Positions 37,810 through 62,290 of a stretch of 64,000 bases of DNA are shown here, one piece after another. Made by a program: the position numbers and the translations under genes. Where the stretch lies: contig JAHRYN010000003.1 in NCBI GenBank assembly GCA_020621405.1, forward strand, positions 62,001 to 126,000. Direction: 5' to 3'. The notes beneath the pieces are model-generated. The model was not told where the DNA came from. It worked only from the letters and a program-made list of their open reading frames with translations, and did no database searches. Positions within the stretch are counted from its first letter, which is position 1. Every line of letters begins with the position of its first letter. The DNA comes from Betaproteobacteria bacterium. GTDB lineage: Bacteria > Pseudomonadota > Gammaproteobacteria > Burkholderiales > Rhodocyclaceae.

Positions 37810-38240
37810 CCGAACGGCTTGGGTAGCCAGCTAAGTCCGGCGACACCGGCTCGCGGTTGAGCAGACGCACGCGGCCGATGTTCGCCGCTGCGTCGCCCTC
37901 ACGCAGGCCCAGCCCCGACGCGGTTCAGTACCACGCGCGATATCGCCTCGCCGACGCCTGCGAGCGACGCCACGTTCTGGAAGGCCGTGGGCCGCGACAC
38001 GAAAGTGCCCTTGCCATGGATGCGGAAGATCAGCCCCGCCTTCTGCAGATAGCCCAGCGCCTGCCGCACCATGATGCGGCTGACCCCGAACATCGCACCC
38101 AGCTCGCTTTCCGACGGCATCTGGCTGTGCGGCGCCCAGGTGCCGTCGAGAATGCGCGAACGCAGATGCCCGGTCAGCTGCGCATAGAGCGGCGACGGTG
38201 CATCGGGCAGCAGGACGGGCAGGAGATCGGTTTTCGGCAT
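37810..38240 (-). pseudogene. GntR/HutC-type regulator with frameshifted, truncated UTRA domain
   Basis: The intact frame (37899-38240, 113 aa) encodes a GntR winged-helix domain (about 14-85: PLYAQLTGHLRSRILDG, MPSESELGAMFGVSRIMVRQAL) and the first strand of a ligand-binding UTRA domain, then stops. In the next frame the text resumes as LREGDAAANIGRVRLLNREPVSPDL, a recognisable UTRA piece, before homology ends near 37810. Full family members are about 240 aa. So a frameshift plus a 3' deletion removed the effector domain. The DNA-binding part could still act as a constitutive repressor. A perfect palindromic operator lies 9 bases upstream of its start. Confidence 0.7.
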
Positions 38241-38248
38241 CGGGCAAG

Positions 38249-38264
38249 ACTTGTCATGACAAGT
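38249..38264. promoter_or_regulatory. Perfect 16-bp palindrome, GntR-type operator
   Basis: ACTTGTCATGACAAGT, perfectly palindromic, just upstream of the GntR start and downstream of its -10 element. The identical 16-mer occurs at 49320-49335 before tauD. GntR/HutC regulators bind such palindromes, and autoregulation is likely. Confidence 0.8.
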
Positions 38265-38270
38265 GCGCCG

Positions 38271-38303
38271 AGCGTAAGGGCAGCGTCACGCTCGCCGAAC
38301 CAA
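38271..38303 (-). promoter_or_regulatory. Sulfur-type promoter of the GntR gene
   Basis: On the minus strand TTGGTT (complement of 38298-38303), 21 bases, TACGCT (complement of 38271-38276). The surrounding GCGGAATTTCTTGGTT text is shared with the tauD promoter. Confidence 0.65.
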
Positions 38304-38774
38304 GAAATTCCGCGAAGGTTTGCGTGACGAATGCTTAGTGGGTTGGGTCAGGGGCGACTGGCGTCACATGGGCGCCGGGGGACACCGACTGGAGGGGGAG
38401 TCGATCCGAATGAAGCCGCTGGGTTGCGGGGCGAGGATCCGAACGGACATCCATCGGCGAAACCAGCGCTTAAGCCGGCAGCCGTGCACGTAATGCGAAA
38501 CAGGTATAGTCAGGCAGCCGTCTTATTCACGCATCCGTCACCCCTGTCTCACCGGGACGCGGAGCTAGGCACGGCCTGGAAGATGATGGTTGATGCGTGC
38601 GGTTCAATCACGTAGCACGGAAGCGTCGATAAAACGGTAGATCAGGCAAATCGGCTACTGGCGTAATTTAGCCGCTGATGACTTTTTCGCAATACACCGC
38701 AGCCGATGCAATACACCGCATCGCTTCGGTCTAGAGCACGTTGGGCCACTGCAGCAGCCACTAGGGATTGAGCG
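38304..38774. other. Gene-free region before the GIY-YIG/SLATT cassette
   Basis: About 470 bases with no convincing coding frame. It marks the passage from GC-rich sulfur genes to lower-GC accessory DNA. It contains a direct repeat (listed separately) about 55-85 bases before the cassette. No tRNA or integrase remnant was seen. Confidence 0.5.
38689..38720. repeat. Direct repeat GCAATACACCGCA x2 upstream of the cassette
   Basis: GCAATACACCGCA occurs at 38689-38701 and 38708-38720, 19 bases apart, close to two helical turns. The position 55-85 bases before the GIY-YIG start fits an operator or promoter element. The binder is unknown. Confidence 0.55.
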
Positions 38775-40475: not shown

Positions 40476-41611
40476 TCAGGCAGGCAACTTGAACGCGTCA
40501 CCCCGGGCGAGTACCGCCCAGGCCATGCGCGCGTTCTTCGCCGCGATGGCCACGACAGCCTTCCAGTAGCCGCGCCGCTCAGCCACCGATCGGGCCCAGC
40601 GGCTCAGGCGGTCGGTCTTCTCGCCCGCTGCGGCGAGCACGGCACGCGCGCCCATGATCAACAGCGATCTCAGATAGCTGTCGCCTGCCTTGGTGATGCG
40701 CCCCAGGCGTGCCTTGCCGCCCGAACTGTACTGACCGGGCACCAGGCCGAGCCAGGCGGCGAACTGGCGTCCGCAGCGAAACTCGTGTCCGTTGCCCACG
40801 GTGGCGCTCAGCGCCGTGGCAGTGGTCTCACCGACCCCGGACAGGCGCATGAGTGCGCGCGCCCGTGCATCCTCCCGGGCCATCTGAGCGAGATGACGGT
40901 CGTACTGACTGATGCGCTCGTCGAGCCGGTGCACCTCGCTGAGCAAATCCCCGATGGACAGATTCGCCCAACTGGGCAGATCCTCGAGGCAGGCCGCGGC
41001 CTGGCGGCGCACGGTATCCGCCTTCAGGGGCAGTACGAGGCCGAACTCCGAGAGCAGGCCGCGGATGCGGTTGATCGTGGCGGTGCGCTGTTCGATGAAA
41101 CCCTGGCGGGTGCGGTGCAGTGTCAGCCGCGCCTGCTGGTCGGCGCTCTTGACCGGAACGAAACGCATGGCCGGCCGCTGCACCGCTTCGCAGATGGCGG
41201 CCGCATCGGCTGCATCGTTCTTGCCACGCTTGCCGCTCATGCGATAGGGGGTGACGAACTTGGGCGCGATCAGACGCACGGTGTGACCAAGGGCGGCGAA
41301 CTGCCGCGCCCAGTGGTGGGCGCCCGAGCAGGCTTCCATCGCGAGAGTGCAGGCAGGCAACTGAGCGACGACATCCATCAGTCGGGCACGGGCGACTTTC
41401 GGCTGGATGAGCACGGGCTTGCCGAGCTCATTGACACCGTGCAAGGCGAATACATTCTTGGCAAGATCGATGCCGACGAAGACAATGCTCATGGACTTCC
41501 CCCTTCGAGTGAAATTGATGAGATTCGCAACCCCATCGTGGCACTGCCGTGCCTGCCGCTGCAATCCGCTGCTGCGTTTCAGTCGGGACGGGGAAGTCCC
41601 TTTCATTCGTT
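40330..41611 (-). mobile_element. IS110-family insertion sequence, ends approximate
   Basis: One transposase gene flanked by about 120 and 145 bases of non-coding DNA. The right edge is placed at 41611 because recognisable host protein coding begins at 41612. The left edge is not defined by sequence I can see. IS110 elements lack ordinary terminal repeats, and no target duplication was found. Confidence 0.5.
40476..41492 (-). CDS. IS110-family transposase
   Basis: A 338-aa DEDD recombinase. The N-terminal RuvC-like domain shows the acidic residues in GIDLAKNVFALHG (Asp), MEACSGAHHWAR (Glu) and KNDAADA (two Asp). The C-terminal transposase-20 domain (about 195-285) has LMRLSGVGETTATAL and FAAWLGLVPGQYSSGGKARLGR, including the conserved catalytic Ser region. 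ATG 41492 follows AAGGGGGAA; an upstream in-frame extension to 41606 is not homologous. The gene looks intact. Elements of this family use a structured non-coding RNA from their own end to choose targets. Confidence 0.92.
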   Translation of the reverse strand: MSIVFVGIDLAKNVFALHGVNELGKPVLIQPKVARARLMDVVAQLPACTLAMEACSGAHHWARQFAALGHTVRLIAPKFVTPYRMSGKRGKNDAADAAAICEAVQRPAMRFVPVKSADQQARLTLHRTRQGFIEQRTATINRIRGLLSEFGLVLPLKADTVRRQAAACLEDLPSWANLSIGDLLSEVHRLDERISQYDRHLAQMAREDARARALMRLSGVGETTATALSATVGNGHEFRCGRQFAAWLGLVPGQYSSGGKARLGRITKAGDSYLRSLLIMGARAVLAAAGEKTDRLSRWARSVAERRGYWKAVVAIAAKNARMAWAVLARGDAFKLPA

Positions 41612-44500: not shown

Positions 44501-45478
44501 TCAGCCGGCGCAGCGCCTGCGCGCGATCAGGCCGGTCAGGCCGAGACCGGCCAGCAGCATCGCCCAGCTCGACGGCTCCGGTACCGGCAGCGTCGGACCT
44601 GCGGCAATCCGGCCACCCACGCCGCCGGTCAGCGTGACCCCGGCCTGCGGCGTCCAGGTCGAGTGGAAGGAATTCAGCGAATCGACGAACTGGGTGTCCG
44701 GACTCCCATAAACGTAGGCGGACATGGACAGCTCTTCCTTCAGGTCGACGCCCTGCGTGTAGGTGGTGAAGCTCAGGTCGTACGCGAAGTTGTAGATGCC
44801 GTCGTGATTGGCGTCGTCCCACACCAGATTGAACAACGGATTGAAGACCGTGTTGCCCGACGCGTCCCGGCTGGTCATGTCTTCGACCGTCATTTTTCCG
44901 GTCACGAGGTTTTCGGTGGAAAACCAGCCGTAAGGGCGCAGCGGGCCTTCGCCCTGCTCCACCGCGAAGTGGAACTGGTAGAACGTGGTTGTACTCCAGA
45001 GCGAATAGAAAACCCGGAAATTCGCGGAGCCCTCGGTGAAGCTGCCATCCTGACGCAGCCGGACATCGAGGCTGGTCGCCAGAGGCACGGCGGTGCCGCA
45101 CGCGTCGCCGCCGCAGACGAAGCCGTCATCGCGATAGGACACATCGGAATGGACGATTCCTCGCACCGGCGAGCGGGCGCTGACGCCGATCTTCACGTCC
45201 AGACTGCCGCTGCTGCCGAAGCCGATCGACGACGAGGCGAAGTTGTTCTCGTCGTACCGGACCGAACTGCTCGACTGCCAGAGCGACGGGTCGTCCACCG
45301 GGGAATGGCCGTCCATCAGATAACCGCCTTCGGGCAGCGGGACATAGCTCCAGCTGCGGAAGGTATCGGCGGCAGCGGCCGTATGCCCGAACGTCACGAG
45401 GGCGGCAGCCAGCAAGGCCGACGCCAGACGCGGCAGGCCGGAGGACGCGTTGATCGAAGCGCGGTTTCTGGTTTTCAT
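44501..45478 (-). CDS. PEP-CTERM sorting domain protein
   Basis: A 325-aa exported protein. The start ATG 45478 (GGAG seven bases upstream) gives a signal peptide ending AAAAD near residue 37. An in-frame start at 45571 would bury it. The mature domain (about 40-295) is beta-rich, Ser/Asp/Gly-rich and contains a CGGDACG pair of Cys. No named family. The C-terminus VPEPSSWAMLLAGLGLTGLI followed by ARRRC is a clear PEP-CTERM exosortase signal. It is convergent with the radical SAM gene. Likely an extracellular matrix or surface protein. Confidence 0.85.
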   Translation of the reverse strand: MKTRNRASINASSGLPRLASALLAAALVTFGHTAAAADTFRSWSYVPLPEGGYLMDGHSPVDDPSLWQSSSSVRYDENNFASSSIGFGSSGSLDVKIGVSARSPVRGIVHSDVSYRDDGFVCGGDACGTAVPLATSLDVRLRQDGSFTEGSANFRVFYSLWSTTTFYQFHFAVEQGEGPLRPYGWFSTENLVTGKMTVEDMTSRDASGNTVFNPLFNLVWDDANHDGIYNFAYDLSFTTYTQGVDLKEELSMSAYVYGSPDTQFVDSLNSFHSTWTPQAGVTLTGGVGGRIAAGPTLPVPEPSSWAMLLAGLGLTGLIARRRCAG

Positions 45479-45722
45479 GTCGAAGCTCCAAGGAGGTTTG
45501 CCGCCCGACGCCTCATGCAGGAGAGCATGAGGCGCAGCCGTACGAGCGCGACGGCCGGAAGGGCGGAGCACTGAAGGGCTGCATCAATGAAGCGCCGATT
45601 CCGGGCACGGCACTTTGAGCAACATCAAATGGAACGTTCGTCCAAGTCCGGCGCAGGTGAGCGACGCCGATGATTGCCGTGACGTACCTGCCGACAGCGA
45701 TGAGTGCTGAGCGACCCGTGCT

Positions 45723-46139
45723 TCGCGAGCATGGCTCGCTCCTACAAAAAACGTCGCGACGTGTCGAAAAACGTCGCGGTGCGCCCCCTGTAGGAGCGAG
45801 CCATGCTCGCGATCCGGCCGTCGAGCAACGGCCGGCGATGATCAGCGCGTGCTTCGCGAGCGGTGCTCGCTCCTACGAAAAACGTCGCGGCATTTTAAAA
45901 CCGTCGCGGTGCCCCCTCTGTAGGAGCGAGCCATGCTTGCGATCCGGCCGTCGAACAACGGCAGGCGATGATCAGCGCGCGCTTCGCGAGCGGTGCTCGC
46001 TCCTGCGAAAAACGTCGCGACGTATCGAAAAACGTCGCGGTGCGCCCCCTGTAGGAGCGAGCCATGCTCGCGATCCGGTCGTCGAACAACGCCGGGCGAT
46101 GATCAGCGCGCGCTGTCGCGAGCATGGTTCGCTGCTACG
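45723..46139. repeat. REP palindrome array 2
   Basis: Seven cores alternate in orientation: three TAGGAGCGAGCCATGC(T)TGCGA type (45791, 45921, 46052) and four TCGCGAGC(A/G)(T/G)G(C)TCGCTCCT type (about 45723, 45853, 45983, 46116). The period is about 130 bases. Linkers contain AAAACGTCGCG(A/G) repeats. The array ends 15 bases before the amidohydrolase-like stop, so it could act as its transcript end. Confidence 0.85.
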
Positions 46140-46154
46140 CCATGCACTCGGCAT

Positions 46155-47015
46155 TCACGACAGCTTCAGCAGCCGCCGCGCGTTTTCGTGCAGCACCTTC
46201 GTGCGCACGCCGGCCTTCCACGCCAGCTTGTCGAAGTCTTCGACCGTCTGCTTCATCGCGCGGAAGGGATAGGACGTGCCGAACAGGAACTGGTCCTGCA
46301 GCACGCTGTTGACCGCCTCCACGTAAGCGCTGCCGCCCGGCGCGAACAGGTACATGTCGGGGCACAGGAACACGTTCTCGTAGCGGAAGGCGACGCCGAT
46401 GATTTCGGCGACGCGCGGCCAGAAGCCGTGATAGCAGACGATCTTCAGCCGGGGGAAGGCGCGGGCGACGCGGCCGACCGCGGCCGGGTCGTTGTAGGCG
46501 AGGTCGGGCGTGGTCGGACCGGACATCAGGCAGACCGGCACGTCGAGCGACTGGCAGGCGTCGTACACCGGCTGGAATAGCGGATCGTCGGCGTGCAGCG
46601 CGGGCGCGCCGAAGCCGGGTTCGAGATTGATCGCCTTCTGGCCCAGCACGGTGATCGAACGCTCGATTTCGGCCAGCGTGGCGGCGGTGCCGCGGGTCTG
46701 CGGATCGACCGAGCCCAGACCGATCAGTTCGGCATGACCCCGCGTCAGTTCGGCGATGCGGTCGTTGGAAACGGTGAGGCCCGGCGTATCGCGGCCGACC
46801 ACCACGGCGTGCGAGATGCCGCTGTGCCGGATTTCGTCGAGATAGCCGTCCACCGTGAAGGACGCGCGGAAGTGATCGTCGATGCGCGAACCGGTGCGGC
46901 GGTTGAGCCATTTCGCGGTTTCGTAACCGGCGGTGCCGGGCGTGGAGCCGTAGAACTCTGCGAGCAATGCAGGGCGGCTGCGGAAGTCGATGATTTTCTG
47001 GCGGTCGTCGCCCAT
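46155..47015 (-). CDS. Amidohydrolase-2-family protein without the HxH metal motif
   Basis: A 286-aa TIM-barrel protein of the amidohydrolase-2 family. The start ATG 47015 (MGDDRQKIIDFRSRPALL) is preferred; an in-frame extension to 47099 crosses the upstream terminator. Where active members have DxHxH after the first strand, this one has DFRSRP. Later barrel elements remain: VCLMSGP, KIVCYHGFWPRV with His, and FGTSYPF near the C-terminus. It may bind metal differently or be non-hydrolytic. It lies downstream of the ssuA-tauD terminator, so links to sulfur metabolism are positional only. Confidence 0.75.
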   Translation of the reverse strand: MGDDRQKIIDFRSRPALLAEFYGSTPGTAGYETAKWLNRRTGSRIDDHFRASFTVDGYLDEIRHSGISHAVVVGRDTPGLTVSNDRIAELTRGHAELIGLGSVDPQTRGTAATLAEIERSITVLGQKAINLEPGFGAPALHADDPLFQPVYDACQSLDVPVCLMSGPTTPDLAYNDPAAVGRVARAFPRLKIVCYHGFWPRVAEIIGVAFRYENVFLCPDMYLFAPGGSAYVEAVNSVLQDQFLFGTSYPFRAMKQTVEDFDKLAWKAGVRTKVLHENARRLLKLS

Positions 47016-47061
47016 GGAGTGTCCGATCAGTTCAGTGCTGCGGGTATAAAATGCGGGCGAT

Positions 47062-47105
47062 AAAAAACCCCGCTCCGGTCCGGACCGGGCCGAACCCAAG
47101 CGGGG
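47062..47105 (-). terminator. Terminator of the tauD-ssuA operon
   Basis: On the minus strand AGCCCCGCT-side stem (complement of 47099-47105) pairs with 47068-47074 (CCCCGCT), followed by six T (complement of 47062-47067). It lies 18 bases after the ssuA stop. Confidence 0.85.
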
Positions 47106-47122
47106 CTGTCACGGGCGCTGCG

Positions 47123-48127
47123 TCAGTTCTTTTTCGCTTCCTTCGGCAGCGCGTCCAGCACGCGTACCTGCCTGGGCACGAGCTTCAGTTCGAAGAACTT
47201 GTCGGCGATGTTCTGCTGCGATTCGAGCACCTTGGGCGTCACCGGCCTGATGCCGTAGCCGAGACGGCCGGCGGCCAGTTCGGCGATCGGCAGATCGACG
47301 CCGATCAGCGGCGCAATGGCCTTGGCGACTTCCTTGTTGTTCTGCAGGCCCCACTGGTCGACCCTGTCGATCTCTTCCAGCAGGATCTTCACGATCTCCG
47401 GGTACTTTTCGGCGTAGGGACGCGACGACAGATAGAACTGGTAGTTCGACACCGCACCCTTGCCGTCGGCCAGCACGCGGACGTTGAGCTGCTTTTCGGC
47501 AGCGGCGTAGAACGGGTCCCAGATCGCCCATGCATCGACCCGGCCACTCTCGAAGGCGGCACGGCCATCGGCCGGCGCGAGGTAGGACACCTCGACGTCG
47601 GTGAACTTCAGGCCGGCGTTCTCGATCAGCTTGACCAGCAGGTAGTTCGCGTTGGAGCCCTTGGCGACCGCGATGCGCTTGCCCTTGAGATCGGCCACCG
47701 TCTTGACCGGCGAATCCTTCAGCACCAGCAGCGCTTCGCCACCCGATGCCGGCGGTTCGTTGCCGATGTAGACCAGGTCGGCGCCGGCTGCCTGCGCGAA
47801 GATCGGCGGCGCTTCGCCGGTGGTACCGACGTCGATGCTGCCGACGTTGATCGCTTCGAGCAGCGGCGGGCCGAACGGGAATTCGGTCCATTTGACCTCG
47901 ATGCCCTTTTCCGCGAGCCGCTTGTCGAGCGTGCCGCGTGCCTTGAGGATGACCAGCGTGCCGTACTTCTGGTAGCCGATGCGCAGTTCCTTCGGCGTGC
48001 CGGCGGTCTGTGCCGACACCGGACCGGTCAGCAGCGCGCTCGCGGCGACCGTCAGGGCCACCAGGCCGGCGGCCTTGCGCAGGCCCTGCTTCAGCCATCC
48101 GGCGGCGTTAGATGTTCTGTAGTTCAT
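47123..48127 (-). CDS. ssuA: Aliphatic sulfonate ABC transporter substrate-binding protein (copy 3)
   Basis: A 334-aa periplasmic protein of the canonical SsuA type. A signal peptide with a basic N-region (about 1-40, ending VSAQ) precedes ELRIGYQKYGTLVILKARGTLDKRLAEKG. Conserved SsuA blocks include EFPFGPPLLEAINVGSIDVG, TVADLKGKRIAVAKGSNANYLL and YLAPADGRAAFESGRVDAWAIWDP. It follows tauD by 12 bases and has no permease or ATPase of its own here, so it probably feeds one of the two SsuBC pairs encoded at 31-36 kb. Ends in a strong terminator. Confidence 0.93.
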   Translation of the reverse strand: MNYRTSNAAGWLKQGLRKAAGLVALTVAASALLTGPVSAQTAGTPKELRIGYQKYGTLVILKARGTLDKRLAEKGIEVKWTEFPFGPPLLEAINVGSIDVGTTGEAPPIFAQAAGADLVYIGNEPPASGGEALLVLKDSPVKTVADLKGKRIAVAKGSNANYLLVKLIENAGLKFTDVEVSYLAPADGRAAFESGRVDAWAIWDPFYAAAEKQLNVRVLADGKGAVSNYQFYLSSRPYAEKYPEIVKILLEEIDRVDQWGLQNNKEVAKAIAPLIGVDLPIAELAAGRLGYGIRPVTPKVLESQQNIADKFFELKLVPRQVRVLDALPKEAKKN

Positions 48128-48139
48128 GTATTCGATTCC

Positions 48140-49012
48140 TCAGAAAGATCGGTCTTCGCCGAAGGTCACCCGGTGCAGCAGGCGCGGCTGGTAGTCGTAG
48201 TCATTGACGGCGTAATGCACGGTGGCGCGGTTGTCCCAGATTGCGACCGTGCCCTCCTCCCAGCGCAGCCGGGCCTGGAATTCCGGCTTCTGGAACTGCG
48301 AGAACAGGAAGGTCAGCAGCGCGTCGCTCTGCTGCCGTGACAGGCCCTTGATCCGGTCGGTGAAGTTGGGGCTGATGAACAGGATCTTCCTGCCGGTGAC
48401 CGGGTGCGTGCGCACGACCGGGTGCACGACCGGCAGGTAGTCGGCGCGCGCCTTGCGGTACACCGCCTCGCCGTCTTCCAGCTGCGAGAAGTAGTTCGGC
48501 CAGCCGCTGTTCTCGAAGCTGTGCACCGCTTCGAGTTCTTCCAGATAGATCTGCAGCGAACGGGGCAGCGACTCGAACACGGCCGTGGCACTGGCCCACA
48601 GCGTGTCGCCGCCGGAGGCAGGAACGATCTTCGAGTAGAGCACCGTGCCGGTCGGCGGATTGGCCGAGAAGCTGATGTCGGAATGCCACTGGTCGACACC
48701 GTAGCGGTGGCCGGCCGGCTGCGTCTCGATCAGTTCGATGACCTTGTGTTTGTCGTGGCGCGGGAAGAAGGCCTTCGCCTTGTCGGGATCGCCGAACACC
48801 CGGGCGAGCGCGATCTGCTGTTCCGGCGTCAGCGTCTGCCGGCGGAAGAACAGCACCTGGAATTCGGCCAGCGCCTTGCGCAGTTCGGCGCGCAGCCCTT
48901 CGTCACCGAGGTCCGCCAGATCGACGTTGTTGATCGTGGCACCGATGTTCGGGGTATAGGGCTCGACGCCCAGACGGGTGTAGCCCGGTACTGCAGATTC
49001 AAGCTTGGACAT
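48140..49012 (-). CDS. tauD: TauD-family 2-oxoglutarate/Fe(II) dioxygenase
   Basis: A 290-aa dioxygenase that oxidises taurine or another alkyl sulfonate/sulfate to release sulfite or sulfate. The Fe(II) facial triad is His110 and Asp112 (WHSDISF) with His266 (NRATVHYAV). Arg277 in RLLHRVTF holds 2-oxoglutarate. Length and the start YTRLGVEPYTPNIGATI match the family. Alkylsulfatase AtsK is a close relative, so the exact substrate is open. It is first of a two-gene operon with ssuA, under a TTGGTT-N21-TAGGCT promoter and a GntR-type palindrome. Confidence 0.92.
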   Translation of the reverse strand: MSKLESAVPGYTRLGVEPYTPNIGATINNVDLADLGDEGLRAELRKALAEFQVLFFRRQTLTPEQQIALARVFGDPDKAKAFFPRHDKHKVIELIETQPAGHRYGVDQWHSDISFSANPPTGTVLYSKIVPASGGDTLWASATAVFESLPRSLQIYLEELEAVHSFENSGWPNYFSQLEDGEAVYRKARADYLPVVHPVVRTHPVTGRKILFISPNFTDRIKGLSRQQSDALLTFLFSQFQKPEFQARLRWEEGTVAIWDNRATVHYAVNDYDYQPRLLHRVTFGEDRSF

Positions 49013-49319
49013 GAGAATGCGGCTCCTTGCGTATGGACCGGCAGCGGCCGGTCTGATTGAAAGCTAAATGGATTCCGGAACGGAACGAACCAATGGTTTC
49101 TGCTTTGCTTATCGACAAGCGGGTGCCCCGTCGGCAAGCGCGGCACCGGAGTGCACGCAGCCGTCCGTGCCAGGCGCTGGCCATGCACAGGGCATCGCCG
49201 CGCCCTCGTCGGCAGCTGCGGCCGGCGGCGGAAAGCGCAGCGCGGACGCATTCCGCAGAAGGATCGGTGCCGGCATCGGCACCGCGATGGTTGCAACAGG
49301 TGAGCAGGGCATCAGCATG

Positions 49320-49335
49320 ACTTGTCATGACAAGT
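49320..49335. promoter_or_regulatory. GntR-type operator before tauD
   Basis: ACTTGTCATGACAAGT, identical to 38249-38264. In both loci the palindrome lies exactly 49 bases from the TTGGTT box (start to start on the plus strand) and downstream of the predicted transcription start, a repressor-like position. Confidence 0.8.
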
Positions 49336-49341
49336 TCGACG

Positions 49342-49374
49342 AGCCTAAGCGTGCGCAGACGGCCGCAGAACCAA
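49342..49374 (-). promoter_or_regulatory. Sulfur-type promoter of tauD-ssuA
   Basis: Minus strand TTGGTT (complement of 49369-49374), 21 bases, TAGGCT (complement of 49342-49347). The leader to the tauD start is long, about 320 bases, and contains no evident riboswitch. Confidence 0.65.
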
Positions 49375-49506
49375 GAAATTCCGCAAACCTTTGCCGCCCG
49401 AATGATTTGTGGTGATGCGCACCGGAAGAGGAAAAGGCGGTGCTGCGGGCGAAGGCTTGCCCGGGGATGGGCTTATCAGAGTGCGTGGTTAGCAGCGCAA
49501 CAATTC

Positions 49507-49539
49507 TTGGTTCCGACCGGGCGGCTCAGCCGCTAGGCT
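49507..49539 (+). promoter_or_regulatory. Orphan sulfur-type promoter, divergent from tauD
   Basis: TTGGTT (49507-49512), 21 bases, TAGGCT (49534-49539), one of the best copies of the motif. It points away from tauD towards a short open frame and a terminator, then into the antisense of an ABC transporter gene. Confidence 0.65.
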
Positions 49540-49570
49540 GCTCACCGCTCCCCCAGCAAGGAAGCGCGTC

Positions 49571-49699
49571 ATGTCCGTCGGCCGGTCGACCCGCAGTAGC
49601 GGTGCCGCGAGTCGACACCTCACCCCGGGGGGTCGGCGGCTGACGCGCAACCTGATCCTCCAGCAGTGGTGTCACTCCTCCATCTGCTTGCAGACGGTT
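49571..49699 (+). other. Short open frame or small RNA between orphan promoter and terminator
   Basis: ATG 49571 sits behind AAGGA at good spacing. The frame reads MSVGRSTRSSGAASRHLTPG and continues LTRNLILQQWCHSSICLQTVGG up to the hairpin, with Cys codons at 49670-49672 and 49685-49687 just ahead of the stem. That is the anatomy of a cysteine-sensing attenuator leader, but no structural gene follows on this strand. Against a true leader peptide, there is no stop codon before the terminator. It could instead be a sulfur-regulated small RNA of about 190 bases. Confidence 0.45.
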
Positions 49700-49733
49700 G
49701 GGGGAACCGGGAAACCGGTTCCCCCTCTTTTCT
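49700..49733 (+). terminator. Strong intrinsic terminator of the orphan unit
   Basis: GGGGGAACCGG pairs perfectly with CCGGTTCCCCC around a GAAA tetraloop (49700-49725), followed by TCTTTTCT. The T-rich side is on the plus strand only, so it ends plus-strand transcripts, not those of the convergent ABC gene. Confidence 0.9.
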
Positions 49734-49765
49734 ATGTACGTCGCGTGCGGGCGCCCGCACGGAGG

Positions 49766-51535
49766 TCAGGCTGGCGAGCGTTCGCCGGTCTGCAGCCGCC
49801 ACAACGACGCATAGCTGTCGTTGCGCAGCACCAGTTCGTCGTGCGAACCGGATTCGACCACCTTGCCGCCATCGATGACGTGGATGGTGTCGGCATGGCG
49901 CACCGTCGACAGCCGGTGTGCGACGATCAATGTGGTGCGGCCGACCACCAGCCGGTCCAGCGAGCGCTGGATGGCGGCTTCGGTTTCGTTGTCCACCGCC
50001 GACGTCGCCTCATCCAGCACCAGTATCGGCGGGTCTTTCAGGATGGCACGCGCCAAGGCCAGTCGCTGGCGCTGGCCACCGGACAGCTTCATGCCGCGCT
50101 CGCCAACCTGGGTGTCGTAGCCCATCGGCAGCGCCATGATGAAGTCGTGCGCCTCGGCCGACTGTGCCGCACGCACGATGTCCGGCCGCGCGGTGTCCGG
50201 CATGCCGTAGGCGATGTTGTCGGCGACCGAGGCGTCGGCCAGGAAGGTGTCCTGCGCGACATAGCCGATGGCGCGGCGCAGGTCCTGCAGATTGAACGAC
50301 GCGATCGGCTGGCCGTCGAGCGTGACCCTGCCCTGCTGTGGCTCGTAGAAACGCAGCAGCAGCTTGATCAGCGTGCTCTTGCCGCCGCCGGTACCGCCGA
50401 CGAAGGCCACTGTGCGGCCGGCGCCTATGTGCAGGTCGATGTCGTCGAGCGCACGCGTGCCGGTGCCGTCGTAGGCGAAGATGACGTGCTCGAAGGCCAG
50501 TTCGCCGCGCACGCTGGAGCGAGGCAGCGGCCGGCCCTCGTAGGAAATGATCACCGGCGTCTGCAGCAGATCAAGCACACGCTGTATCGACGACATCGAG
50601 CGCTGGTACAGGTCGGTCATTTCGGCCAGCCGGGTCAGCGGCCACAGCAGGCGCTGCGTCAGATACACCAGCACCGAATAGCTGCCGACGCCGATGTCGC
50701 CATTCAGCGCCAGAAAGCCGCCATACAGCAGCGTCACCGTGAAGCCGGCCAGAATGGCCATGCGGATCACCGGCGTGATGGCGGCCGACCAGCGGATCGC
50801 CTCGCCGTTGCGCCGGCGGTAGTCGTCGGACCCCTCGCGTATGTGTTCCGCCTCGAAGTCCTCGGCGGCATAGGCCTTCACCGTCGCGATGCCCTGCAGA
50901 TTGTTGTTCAGCCGTGTGGCCAGCGCACCGGCCGATTCGCGCACCGCGGTGTAGCGCGGCGCCAGCCGGCGCTGGAACCAGAAGGCGCCGTACAGGATCA
51001 GCGGCACCGGCACCAGCGCGAGGAAGGCCAGCTGGCTGGTCAGCGCGAAGAACACGCCGCCCACCATCAGCGAACCGACGAAAACCTGGATCAGATCATT
51101 CGCGCCGCCGTTCAGGAAGCGCTCCATCTGGTTGATGTCCTCGTTCAGCACCGCCAGCAGGTTGCCGCTGCGGTTGCGCTCGAAGTAGGCCATGTCCAGC
51201 CGCTGCACGTGGCGGTAGGCCTCCATGCGCAGGTCGTGCTGCAGGTTCTGCGCAAGCGAACGCCAGCGCACGTCGTACAGATACTGGAAGGCCGACTCGC
51301 CAACCCAGATCAGCACGGTGAGGATCGCGAGCAGCACGAGCTGCTCCTTCGGATCGACGACGCCGGCACGCGCAAGGAAGGACGCCTTCTGGTTGACCAC
51401 GACATCCACCGCGACGCCGATCAGGATTTCCGGCAGCACATCGAAGAATTTGTTGAATACCGAATACAGCGACGCGATGCGCACATCGTGGCGGTACTGG
51501 CGGGCGTAATCGAACAGGCGGGAAAGCGGGTGCAT
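49766..51535 (-). CDS. ABC exporter half-transporter (MsbA/lipid or drug type)
   Basis: A 589-aa fusion of a six-helix type I exporter domain (about 1-320) and an ATPase domain (about 345-580). Walker A GGTGGGKST, Q-loop YVAQDTFLADASV, signature LSGGQRQR, Walker B ILVLDEATSAVD and switch IVAHRLSTV are intact, so a homodimer should be active. The start MHPLSRLFDYARQYR at 51535 is chosen; an upstream in-frame ATG at 51616 adds a non-homologous tail. The substrate is unknown. It stands alone, ending 32 bases from the convergent orphan terminator and starting beside REP array 3. Confidence 0.9.
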   Translation of the reverse strand: MHPLSRLFDYARQYRHDVRIASLYSVFNKFFDVLPEILIGVAVDVVVNQKASFLARAGVVDPKEQLVLLAILTVLIWVGESAFQYLYDVRWRSLAQNLQHDLRMEAYRHVQRLDMAYFERNRSGNLLAVLNEDINQMERFLNGGANDLIQVFVGSLMVGGVFFALTSQLAFLALVPVPLILYGAFWFQRRLAPRYTAVRESAGALATRLNNNLQGIATVKAYAAEDFEAEHIREGSDDYRRRNGEAIRWSAAITPVIRMAILAGFTVTLLYGGFLALNGDIGVGSYSVLVYLTQRLLWPLTRLAEMTDLYQRSMSSIQRVLDLLQTPVIISYEGRPLPRSSVRGELAFEHVIFAYDGTGTRALDDIDLHIGAGRTVAFVGGTGGGKSTLIKLLLRFYEPQQGRVTLDGQPIASFNLQDLRRAIGYVAQDTFLADASVADNIAYGMPDTARPDIVRAAQSAEAHDFIMALPMGYDTQVGERGMKLSGGQRQRLALARAILKDPPILVLDEATSAVDNETEAAIQRSLDRLVVGRTTLIVAHRLSTVRHADTIHVIDGGKVVESGSHDELVLRNDSYASLWRLQTGERSPA

Positions 51536-51645
51536 GGGTGGCTCGGAAATTCCGGAAATTGAAGGGACGACTATGCCAGTTTGCAGCGCCAGCGCGCGCG
51601 CACACGGCATCGCCATGCCTGCTTAATCCCGTCGTGGCGTCCCTA

Positions 51646-52273
51646 TAGGAGCGAGCCATGCTCGCGATCCGGTCGTCAAACAACGCCTGCCGACGATCAA
51701 CGCGAGCGGTGCTCGCTCCTACGAAAAAAAACGCCGCCGTGCCTGGTGATCACGATCCAGTCGTGCCCCCCTGTAGGAGCGAGCCATGCTCGCGATGCGG
51801 TCGCCAAACAACGCCTGCCGACGATCCACGCGCGCATCGCGAGCGGTGCTCGCTCCTACAACAGAACCATCGCCGTACCTGGTGGTCACGATCCAGTCGT
51901 ACCGTCCTTGTAGGAGCGAGCCATGCTCGCGATACGGTCGTCAAACAGCGGCTACCGACGATCAACGCACGCATCGCGAGCGGTGCTCGCTCCTACGAAA
52001 AAACCGTCGCCGTGCCTGGTGGTCACAATCCAGTCGTGCTCCCCCCTGTAGGAGCGAGCCATGCTCGCGATCCGGTCTTCAAACAACGCCTGCCGACGAT
52101 CAACGCGTGCATCGCGAGCGGTGCTCGCTCCTACAAAAGAACCGTCGCCGTGCCCGGTGATCACGATCCAATCGTGCCTCCCCTGTAGGAGCGAGCCATG
52201 CTCGCGATCCGGTCTTCAAACAACGCCTGTCGACGATCGACGCGCGAATCGCGAGCATGACTCGCTCCTACAA
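51646..52273. repeat. REP palindrome array 3
   Basis: Five tandem units start with TAGGAGCGAGCCATGCTCGC at 51646, 51774, 51911, 52049 and 52186 (periods 128, 137, 138, 137). Each unit also contains the inverted core GCGAGCGGTGCTCGCTCC, so it is a BIME. Linkers are conserved (AACAACGCCTGCCGACGATC and CACGATCCAGTCGTGC). It separates the ABC exporter start from prc and has no coding content I trust. Confidence 0.9.
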
Positions 52274-52517
52274 AAAAACAGCGTCGCGCCAGCGCCATCG
52301 CGCTCGAAGATGTCCCGGGTGCAACACGCGGAAACATGCCGAGACAAGACTGCAACAGGAATGCGTGCTACTGCGGGGCAACTCCGGTGCAGAATCGCTG
52401 TCCATGGCGACTTATGCCCTTATTCCGTGTCGTCGCCGACCCCAATATGCCTGATCCCGCACCGGACGCCGCTTTCGCCGCCTTCCACGTTCACGCAACC
52501 CTTACCGGAGACCGGAA

Positions 52518-54638
52518 ATGAACCGCCGTCTTGTCACGCCTCTGCTTCTGGCGCTCGCCTGCTGCCTGCAGCCGGCCCTGGCGCAGTCCGCTCCCGTACC
52601 GCGGCTGGCGCCGCTGGCAGAGCAGGCACAGGCTGCCACGCTGAGTGCCGCGGTGCTCAGCCGCTATCACTACAAGGCCACGCCGCTGGATGACGCGCTG
52701 TCGGTCAAGATTTTCGACCGCTACTTCAAGACACTCGATCCGGAACACATCTTCTTCACGCAGGCCGACATCGACCGCTTCTCCGGCGCACGCACGCTGC
52801 TTGACGACGCGCTCATCCAGGGCCGGCTCAACGTCGCCTTCGACATTTTCCAGCTCTACCAGCTGCGCATCGCCGAACGCATGCGCGACGCCAAGGGCCT
52901 GCTCGCCCAGGGTTTCGACTTCACGGTGGCGGAAACCTACGAATACGCGCGCGAAAAGGCGCCGTGGCCGAAGGACGACGCGGAGATGCACGAACTGTGG
53001 CGCAAGCGCGTCAAGTACGACTGGCTGCGACTCAGGCTGGGCGGCAAGGACGACGCGTCCATCGTGGCCATGCTGGACAAGCGCTACGAGAACAACCGGG
53101 CACGCGCCGAACGCAGCAAGAGCGAGGACGTGTTCCAGATCTTCATGAACGCCTACGCCATGTCGATCGAGCCGCACACCAACTACCTCGGCCCGAGTGC
53201 GGCCGACTCCTTCGACATTTCGATGCGGCTGTCGCTGGTCGGCATCGGCGCCGTACTGCAGGAGCGCGAGGAGTACGTCACCATCCGCGAACTGGTGGCC
53301 GGCGGCCCGGCCGCGCGCTCGGAACGGCTGGCCGTGGGCGACCGCATCGTCGGCGTCGGTCAGGGCGACAACGGTGCGCTGGTCGATGTGGTCGGCACGC
53401 GCGTGGACGACGTGGTCAAGCTGATCCGCGGCGAGAAGGACACCAAGGTGGTGCTGGACGTGCTGCCCGCCGACGCGCCGGACGGCACGCACAAGCGCGT
53501 GGTCATCGTGCGCGACAAGATCAAGCTGGACGATCAGGCGGCCAAGAAATCCATCATCAACGTCGGTGAAGGCAGCACTGCCCGCAAGGTCGGCGTGATC
53601 AACCTGCCGACCTTCTACGACGACTTCGAAGGGCGTCGCAAGGGCGACAAGGACTACCGCAGCACCAGCCGCGACGTGGCCCGCCTGATCGAGGAACTGA
53701 AGAAGGAGAAGGTCGACGGCCTGCTGATCGACCTGCGCAACAACGGCGGCGGTTCGCTGCGCGAGGCGGTCGATCTGACCGGGCTGTTCATCGACAAGGG
53801 TCCGGTCGTACTGCAGCGCCGCTCGGACGGCAAGATCGACGCCCAGAGCGACGACAACCCCGGTGTCGCGTGGGACGGCGCGATGGCGGTGCTGATCAAC
53901 CGCGGTTCGGCCTCGGCCTCGGAAATCTTCGCTGCCGCACTGCAGGATTACGGCCGCGCACCGATCATCGGCGACACCAGCTTCGGCAAGGGCACGGTGC
54001 AGACCATCATCGACCTGAACGACGTCGCGCGGAAGAAACAGCCTGCCTACGGCGAACTGAAGATGACCATCGCCCAGTTCTTCCGCGTCAACGGCGGCAC
54101 CACGCAGCTCAAGGGCGTGATTCCGGACATCCGGCTGCCGTCGGTGCTGGAGGACGATGACGGTGGCGAGGCCAGCTTCGACAATGCGCTGCCGTGGACC
54201 CGCATCGACCCGGCCGACTTCGCGCCGGCCGGCGACCTGCGCAGCCTGCTGCCGGCACTGCAGAGCCGCCACGACGCGCGGGTCGCCAACGATCGGGAAT
54301 ACGGCTACCTGCTCGAGGACGTCGCCGAAGCGAAGCGCCTGCGCGACAGCAAGACCGTGTCGCTGAACGAAGCCGAGCGGCGCAAGGACAAGGAGACACG
54401 CGAAGCCCGGCTGAAGGCGCGTGCGAACCAGGACGGCGCCGACAAGCTGAATGCGCTGAAGGACGACGGACTGCAGTCCGGCGAGCGCAGCCTGGCGGCG
54501 GAACTGGCGACCGAAAAGGCACTGAAGGAACGCAAGGACGTGCTGCTGCAGGAAGCCGCGCGCATCGTCGACGACGAAGCGCAGCTGCTCGCCGCGACGA
54601 AGCGGGTGGCGTCGAGGGAAGGCAAACGCACGCAGTGA
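52518..54638 (+). CDS. prc: Carboxy-terminal processing protease Prc/Tsp
   Basis: A 706-aa periplasmic S41A serine protease. A signal peptide (about 1-24, ending LAQ) is followed by the helical Tsp N-domain (about 40-220), a PDZ domain (about 235-330) that reads substrate C-termini, the protease core and a charged helical C-terminal domain (about 560-706, DUF3340 type). The catalytic Ser lies in NRGSASASEIFAAALQDYG and the Lys in DTSFGKGTVQT, both intact. It trims or degrades envelope proteins such as peptidoglycan hydrolases. It is monocistronic with a terminator-like hairpin just after the stop. Confidence 0.95.
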   Translation: MNRRLVTPLLLALACCLQPALAQSAPVPRLAPLAEQAQAATLSAAVLSRYHYKATPLDDALSVKIFDRYFKTLDPEHIFFTQADIDRFSGARTLLDDALIQGRLNVAFDIFQLYQLRIAERMRDAKGLLAQGFDFTVAETYEYAREKAPWPKDDAEMHELWRKRVKYDWLRLRLGGKDDASIVAMLDKRYENNRARAERSKSEDVFQIFMNAYAMSIEPHTNYLGPSAADSFDISMRLSLVGIGAVLQEREEYVTIRELVAGGPAARSERLAVGDRIVGVGQGDNGALVDVVGTRVDDVVKLIRGEKDTKVVLDVLPADAPDGTHKRVVIVRDKIKLDDQAAKKSIINVGEGSTARKVGVINLPTFYDDFEGRRKGDKDYRSTSRDVARLIEELKKEKVDGLLIDLRNNGGGSLREAVDLTGLFIDKGPVVLQRRSDGKIDAQSDDNPGVAWDGAMAVLINRGSASASEIFAAALQDYGRAPIIGDTSFGKGTVQTIIDLNDVARKKQPAYGELKMTIAQFFRVNGGTTQLKGVIPDIRLPSVLEDDDGGEASFDNALPWTRIDPADFAPAGDLRSLLPALQSRHDARVANDREYGYLLEDVAEAKRLRDSKTVSLNEAERRKDKETREARLKARANQDGADKLNALKDDGLQSGERSLAAELATEKALKERKDVLLQEAARIVDDEAQLLAATKRVASREGKRTQ

Positions 54639-59362: not shown

Positions 59363-61289
<1,927 letters not shown>

Positions 61290-61318
<29 letters not shown>

Positions 61319-62222
61319 GGTACTTGCCGATCTCCACGTCATCGAGCACGGCCAGCGCGTCTTCGGTCAGCACGGCCAGGGAGCAGTACAGCGAAATCAG
61401 ATAGGACGCGATCGCGCTGCGGTTGATGCCCATGAAGCGGACCGACAGGCCCGGGCTCTGTTCGCCGGCGATGCCGGGCTGGAACAGGCCGACCACGCCC
61501 TGGCGCTTTTCGCCGGTACGCAACAGGATGATCTTGGTCTTGCCGTCCTCGACCGGCACCTTGTCCGACGGGATCAGCGGCAGGCCGCGCCAGGTCAGGA
61601 ACTGCGACCCGAACAGGCTGACCGTCGGCGGCGGCACGCCACGACGCGTGCATTCGCGGCCGAAGGCGGCGATCGCCAGCGGGTGGGTCAGGAAGAAACC
61701 GGGTTCCTTCCACACCTTGCCTATCAGGTCGTCGAGATCGTCCGGCGTCGGTGCGCCGGTCAGCGTCGAGATGCGCTGATCGTCGTGCACATTGGCCAGC
61801 AGGCCGTACTCGGGATTGTTGATCAGCTCGCTTTCCTGCCGCTCCTTGATGGTCTCTATGGTCAGGCGCAGCTGTTCCTTGATCTGGTCGTGCGGGCTGC
61901 TGTACAGGTCGGAAATGCGGGTATGCACGTCCAGCACGGTGGTGACCGCATTCAGGAAGTATTCGCGCGGCTGTTCGTCGTAATCGACGAAGATCTGCGG
62001 CAGTTCGGCCTCGTCGCGCTGCGAGCACGCGACGCGCACGTCCTGCGGATTCTTGACGCGGTTCACGCGATAGATGCCGGCCTCGACCGGCAGCCACTGC
62101 AGCAGATGCACCAGCCAGCGCGGCGTGATGGTCGACAGCTGGGGTACGGTCTTGGTGGCGTTGGCAAGCTGGCGGGCGGCGTGGTCGCCGAGCGCCAGCT
62201 GCGCGTCCTGATGGTCTGCCAT
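61290..62222 (-). CDS. Family 2A encapsulin shell protein (SrpI-like)
   Basis: A 310-aa HK97-fold shell subunit that assembles into a hollow icosahedral nanocompartment. ATG 62222 has AAGGAG eight bases upstream, the best ribosome site of the operon, fitting the high copy number a shell needs. Family hallmarks include PQLSTITPRWLVHLLQWLPVEAG near the N-terminus, INNPEYGLLANV, LIGKVWKEPGFFLTHP and the C-terminal GLSVRFMGINRSAIASYLISLYCS with VEIGKYHEY. Cyanobacterial SrpI, induced by sulfur starvation, is the reference member. The downstream desulfurase is its cargo. Confidence 0.94.
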
Positions 62223-62254
62223 GGAAAAACTCCTTGCGATGTGAGGAAACGGCT

Positions 62255-62290
62255 TATTCAAAAATTTGCTAAGTGAATATCTCTTTCTTC
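62255..62290 (-). promoter_or_regulatory. A/T-rich inverted repeat upstream of the shell gene
   Basis: TATTCA (62255-62260 complement region) and TGAATA (62274-62279) flank an A/T-rich core in the 108-base gap between the XRE gene and the shell. The base composition is unusual for this chromosome. It may be a separate promoter or a site for the XRE regulator. No firm boxes assigned. Confidence 0.35.

Follow-up and report, generated by a model that had tools for sequence, protein, structure and literature searches.

Genes and features of the locus

The window (the whole stretch of 64,000 nucleotides that was analysed) carries several genes of sulfonate and sulfate use, which encode an FMN-reductase-type (ssuE-like) protein, a luciferase-type monooxygenase, TauD, NMT1-type substrate-binding proteins and an ABC ATPase. 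An SrpI-type 2A encapsulin is encoded next to a class-V aminotransferase-type protein at 59363-62261 on the minus strand. The unit considered here occupies the plus strand of the gap between tauD (48140-49012, minus strand) and the gene of an ABC exporter (49766-51538, minus strand), and consists of a promoter, a predicted transcript and an intrinsic terminator (Table 1). The initial annotation had described it as an orphan sulfur-regulated unit resembling a cysteine attenuator.

Table 1. Features of the orphan unit and of the flanking intergenic DNA (window coordinates).
Feature	Position	Strand	Basis or remark
Regulon promoter of tauD	49061..49093	-	Pattern matches, matrix scan
78% copy of the gntR promoter/operator region (window 38236-38341), with divergent promoter 49374(-) and palindrome ACTTGTCATGACAAGT	49308..49412	-	Sequence match
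GCAGCGCA, upstream element and putative activator site of the regulon promoter	49492..49499	+	Pattern GCANNGCA-N7-TTGGTTC
Regulon promoter core, TTCTTGGTTCC ... TAGGCT (TTGGTTC-N20-TASNNT)	49504..49539	+	Held-out matrix score 34.1
Predicted transcript, about 190 nt	49546..49735	+	Start by the -10 position and end by the terminator, both inferred
AAGGA and ATG of the proposed frame; ATG within a predicted stem	49558..49573	+	Sequence, fold
Branched stem domain (predicted), with 18 outer pairs between 49564-49583 and 49631-49648	49564..49648	+	Fold -51.9 kcal/mol
Predicted central hairpin with ACTCCTCC and both Cys codons (49670, 49685)	49662..49688	+	Sequence, fold
Intrinsic terminator: 11-bp stem, GAAA loop, TCTTTTC tail	49700..49732	+	T tract on the plus-strand side only, none on the minus-strand side

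The promoter and its regulon

A strong copy of the regulon promoter had been claimed for this gap, and the claim is borne out. The full core GCAGCGCA-N7-TTGGTTC-N20-TAGGCT is present, with TTCTTGGTTCC at 49504-49514 and a -10-like TAGGCT at 49534-49539 on direct inspection, and it fits the pattern GCANNGCA-N7-TTGGTTC-N20-TASNNT of the sulfur-regulon promoters of the genus. The first part of this pattern, GCANNGCA-N7-TTGGTTC, has six matches in the 3.8-Mb genome of the organism, all of them on contig C4 between 89.5 and 134.8 kb (reversed control, 0), and TTGGTT-N21-TASNHT has six as well, all on C4 between 91.7 and 126.3 kb (reversed control, 1). Over 13 genomes of the genus, TTGGTTC-N20-TASNNT is matched 26 times against 6 in the control; eight of the 26 belong to the genome under study, seven on C4 and one on C2. 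On a recount over 249 genomes of the family, GCANNGCA-N7-TTGGTTC gives 49 matches against 14 in the control, hence many of the foreign matches must be due to chance.

A promoter matrix, which permits one spacing only, was built from 16 other regulon promoters, with near-duplicates and the loci L005-L007, L055 and L064 left out. The held-out promoter of the unit scores 34.1, where the training sites score 35.4-73.1; as these sites were selected by the same core, agreement in the core is not independent, and it is the flanks that are. Over both strands of the whole window, eight positions score above 15 (27554+, 29693+, 37416+, 38303-, 49093-, 49374-, 49507+ and 59193-), and the ninth-best reaches -5.3. 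The stand-outs 59193(-), 49374(-) and 37416(+) were likewise outside the training set; the last is the weakest of the eight and lacks a TTGGTT core.

At 21 of 27 promoter loci the genes behind this promoter are sulfur-type genes or gntR, namely the gene of a sulfate-binding-type protein (ADITLLNVSYDPTREL...) at 15, gntR at three, and an ssuA-, an ssuE- and a tauD-type gene at one each, the names being read from the sequences, with Pfam support for the window genes. The remaining six are L005, the orphan unit itself (L006), L007, L055, L064 and L065. The unit's promoter is thereby shown to be a member of the regulon. The CysB, SsuR and Cbl sulfur regulons of proteobacteria likewise comprise promoters of sulfate- and sulfonate-uptake genes with one common upstream element.

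No sulfur gene follows the unit's promoter within about 150 nt. As the initial annotation had noted, almost 3 kb of the plus strand is free of coding sequence, and the first family-matched gene on it, that of a Tsp-type protease at 52518, comes 2.8 kb on.

The terminator and the predicted RNA fold

The perfect 11-bp, GAAA-loop terminator with a T tract reported earlier is indeed found, as a hairpin at 49700-49725 followed by TCTTTTC. No other hairpin in the window combines a stem of 11 bp or more with a T-rich tail, and none at all occurs in three one-strand Markov sequences of the window's length. The terminator lies on the same strand as the promoter. By its sequence, the unit has what is expected of a trans-acting small RNA, namely a promoter of its own and an intrinsic terminator between genes.

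The predicted 190-nt RNA folds with -94.7 kcal/mol (z -4.6), and none of 200 shuffled sequences folds as well. Without the terminator the fold is at -68.2 kcal/mol with z -1.9, a value equalled by 8 of 200 shuffles. The 85-nt stem domain, which was picked after folding, has z -3.0; 1% of 500 shuffles and 0.5% of 1066 plus-strand windows of 85 nt are equally stable. The greater stability over shuffles favours a stand-alone non-coding RNA, but the modest value without the terminator and the choice of the stem domain after folding weigh on the other side.

Among the 27 promoter loci, a terminator-like hairpin within 450 nt is found at two, which are the orphan unit and a locus (L055) where the hairpin is inside coding sequence. 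Among the 36 of the 49 family promoter matches that were examined, two (L202 and L220) show one, in neither case ahead of a recognisable sulfur gene.

Coding potential and the leader-peptide reading

Leader-peptide attenuators of amino-acid operons are of the trp and his type, and the unit shares with them an AAGGA, an ATG and key codons ahead of a terminator. All the signals on which the comparison had been founded are in place, no more than a few bases from where they had been put: AAGGA at 49558-49562, ATG at 49571, TGT at 49670 (Cys34) and TGC at 49685 (Cys39). The frame has no stop ahead of the hairpin, again as described; it is open through to 51562, and it is so only as the antisense of the exporter gene. 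It is nevertheless very improbable that the unit is a cysteine leader-peptide attenuator separated from its structural gene by loss or relocation of the latter. The short frame with its key codons does not end at or before the terminator, no biosynthesis or uptake gene lies downstream on the same strand, and the start codon falls within the predicted 18-pair stem. Over 43 codons the frame scores -0.15 bits per codon, which is below 99.4% of real-gene windows (0.6% of them are as low, and 24% of off-frame windows are as high). A CUCCCCCAG in the 5' part can pair with the 5' arm of the terminator before the 3' arm is made, as an attenuator would require. When the first 5 nt of the arm are considered, only 2% of 200 shuffles pair as well, which is in favour of attenuation, but for the whole 11-nt arm 69.5% do. 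Moreover, no recognised sulfur-gene promoter is followed by a terminator-like hairpin within 400-450 nt among the 27 loci and the 36 of 49 family matches.

The peptide of the 49571 frame has no credible relative in 149 other genomes. At E <= 1 there are matches in 105 of 150 genomes, its own included, and the best foreign one has E 7.9e-4 at 22 bits. The two best matches were inspected in six frames and judged to be chance, in agreement with a shuffle control. The best translated match, to L190, has E 2.8e-5 with the composition correction off; 1 of 50 shuffled peptides scores as well, and default statistics raise E to 0.46.

In pyrBI-type attenuation the leader frame overlaps the terminator, which the frame of the unit resembles by passing through the hairpin; it differs in having no downstream operon and no gene-like frame. 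A small regulated protein gene is the least probable of the readings considered and can hardly be upheld. One other promoter copy in the genome does precede a 46-aa ORF (L038 2442-2582), but codon scores are below zero in all three plus-strand frames of 49546-49699, the ATG frame runs into the terminator without a stop, and no credible homologue was found. This promoter copy (L038 2386-2582, plus strand) has, by eye, a spacing one base longer; the ORF behind it has a hydrophobic C-terminal stretch and is upstream of the gene of a sulfate-binding-type protein at 2756.

The content of the unit is un-gene-like as judged by its codons, and the reading as a leader-peptide attenuator is not supported. 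The best reading is rather a gene for a small RNA, or else debris from the shuffling of genes in the neighbourhood.

Distribution of the unit

Following the initial annotation, the segment was sought in related genomes, and no credible relative was found in 12 congeners or in several hundred further genomes. As far as searched, neither the hairpin nor the Cys codons are conserved, an outcome which the initial annotation had itself set against its proposal. At the DNA level, the 12 congeners and a further 48 relatives give no foreign match at E <= 0.001. A search of 398 other genomes of the order gave three, the best of 27 bp and 41 bits; E is counted per genome, and with this number of genomes matches of that kind are to be expected by chance. 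At E <= 0.1, 99 of 399 genomes, its own included, have a match. The longest foreign one (71 bp at 73%, in genome G370, E 0.008) is located in an open frame and was rejected. Plasmids and phages gave no match.

A structure model, made from the single sequence (two identical rows) and run with stricter filters, found no credible match in 249 other genomes; eight reach E <= 1, the best with 24 bits (nine of 250 genomes with its own). The best two foreign loci, read in part, appear by eye to be hairpins behind other protein genes. In 13 sources, which include the tauD locus of Rhodoblastus (L099) and that of L199, nothing beyond the unit and its opposite strand falls under E 0.2. Diverged copies can be missed by searches of this kind, with two candidates scored per genome in the order-wide DNA search and strict filters in the structure model.

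No Rfam family reaches its gathering score in the window. The Xanthomonas small RNA sX12 shows a weak match at 49679-49731 (E 0.012, 27.3 bits against a gathering score of 106), far too low for membership. In the literature, no title or abstract start among the matches listed concerns a sulfur-regulated small RNA of such kind, which is not proof of absence. Where PMC12581299 treats small RNAs of Pseudomonas under sulfur starvation, it deals with iron and virulence RNAs.

The absence of credible homologues by DNA and by structure model counts against a functional RNA. Conservation is not strictly required of small RNAs, many of which are lineage-specific. The congeners, in none of which the unit was found (0 of 12), lack tauD just as well, so that the missing unit says little against function.

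History of the neighbourhood

The exporter was proposed to have moved in and displaced an attenuated operon, and its distribution speaks against this. It is present in 9 of the 12 congeners at 83-88% identity, whereas none of the 12 yields a TauD match at E <= 0.001; hence it is the tauD block, with the unit at its edge, and not the exporter that looks like the newcomer. The 3' side of the exporter tells the same. The orthologue of the window gene at 44501-45571 is directly next to it in three of the nine congeners (G001, G007 and G010), so that the tauD and unit stretch lies between otherwise neighbouring genes; in the window the unit, tauD, ssuA and an amidohydrolase gene stand between the two, and this stretch (45600-49740) is likely an acquired block. 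In the other congeners a PhyH-like gene (named from its sequence) converges on the exporter in two (G004 and G006), an ssuA orthologue adjoins it in one (G005) and other sequence in three. The 5' side varies too: the Tsp protease adjoins the exporter, as in the window, in four of the nine (G002, G007, G011 and G012), and sulfonate-type transport genes precede it in three (G001, G004 and G010). The PhyH-like gene adjoins the exporter in G004 and G006, and gntR in G004 and G005. The idea that the unit is a relic of this gene was rejected, as no similarity was seen.

The nearest named relative of TauD is that of Rhodoblastus sphagnicola at 68%, where records very near the genome of the window may have been omitted from the listing, and a TauD-like gene stands behind the same promoter in a genome of another genus of the family (L199). 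The whole gap 49013-49765 has one other match in its own genome, through the 78% copy of the gntR promoter and operator. This copy is about 280 bp upstream of the tauD promoter, and no recognised gene starts right behind it. Seven other genomes, of which one is a congener, share eight matches of 25-52 bp with the gap, all within 49102-49250 and outside the unit.

The gntR-type regulator of the window (37899-38240, minus strand) is truncated to 113 aa, against 260 in congener G004. With its stop read through, it can be aligned with residues 1-166 of the G004 protein, and it has the look of a pseudogene. An IS110-type transposase gene (40476-41606, minus strand) lies between it and the tauD cluster. 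Two arrays, at 51629-52279 and 45708-46138, consist of GTAGGAGCGAGCC...GGCTCGCTCCTAC-type palindromes in units about 130-138 bp apart, and the second adjoins the acquired-looking tauD block.

A possible small RNA gene or inert remnant

Orphan intergenic transcription units are a well-known class, and nutrient-regulated intergenic small RNAs are a general class in bacteria. The unit resembles the latter in its own regulated promoter, a length of about 190 nt, a strong intrinsic terminator, the lack of a gene-like ORF and a pyrimidine-rich segment; it differs in being known here from its sequence, with neither a detected target nor conservation. At a probability of roughly one half, the unit is transcribed on its own, under sulfur control, into a non-coding RNA of about 190 nt, which may act in trans as a small RNA. 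The held-out promoter score, the confinement of the motif to one C4 region of the genome, the sulfur-type genes or gntR behind the same promoter at 21 of 27 loci, the terminator of a strength found nowhere else in the window, the fold, the un-gene-like codons, the ATG within a predicted stem and the lack of a credible peptide relative all favour this reading. This reading is weakened by a crude scan in which the central segment formed no notable duplex with any of 31 assumed translation starts of the window (best z -1.1), and by the location at the edge of a block that the congeners lack, where chance junctions are likely. Of the two suggestions of the initial annotation, the sulfur-responsive small RNA fits best, and it is the anatomy that carries it.

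A close rival, which is somewhat less probable, is a non-functional remnant in which a regulon promoter and an unrelated terminator came to stand side by side after insertion or rearrangement of the tauD block; it would perhaps be transcribed, its RNA being inert. The absence of both unit and tauD from all 12 congeners, the direct succession of exporter and 44501-45571 orthologue in three of nine, and the affinity of TauD to Rhodoblastus are consistent with it, and so are the decay and duplication nearby (the shortened gntR, the promoter copy and the IS110-type transposase). On the other hand, the unit has a strong, intact promoter and terminator, its predicted RNA has more structure than shuffled sequences, and comparison of 49481-49765 with the loci examined revealed no gene fragment, the L190 match being at E 0.46 with default statistics.

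If the unit is a stand-alone RNA gene, a putative activator of the sulfur regulon would act at GCAGCGCA...TTCTTGG when sulfate or cysteine is short, as judged from the genes with the same promoter. RNA polymerase would start near 49546, as the -10 suggests, and transcription would presumably stop at the hairpin 49700-49725. Three elements are predicted in the folded RNA of about 190 nt: the branched stem domain, a central hairpin in which lies the pyrimidine-rich CACUCCUCC, and the terminator. If the RNA is active at all, it would most likely act in trans as a small RNA, by pairing with purine-rich ribosome-binding sites, although any such action is conjecture.

Another reading is a conditional antisense RNA, in which read-through of the terminator into the exporter gene would lower its expression under sulfur limitation. 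The convergent layout, with about 30 bp from the predicted RNA end to the stop codon of the exporter, and the strong promoter would suit it. It is quite improbable, as the terminator looks strong, the pairing that would open it is equalled in 69.5% (11-nt arm) or 2% (5-nt arm) of shuffles, and the unit was not found in the nine congeners with the exporter. A more specific proposal, which is unlikely, joins these possibilities: the sulfur-starvation regulon might include a structured RNA specific to this lineage, perhaps gained with tauD, which represses targets in trans through CACUCCUCC under the activator of sulfonate scavenging, or else a conditionally terminated antisense RNA might silence the adjoining exporter when sulfur is short.

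If the unit is inert, it is a clean case of a promoter-terminator pair that mimics an attenuator, and a caution for attenuator prediction. If it is transcribed and functional, it would link small-RNA control to organosulfur scavenging in this lineage, and would show a recently acquired or rearranged promoter founding a new RNA gene.
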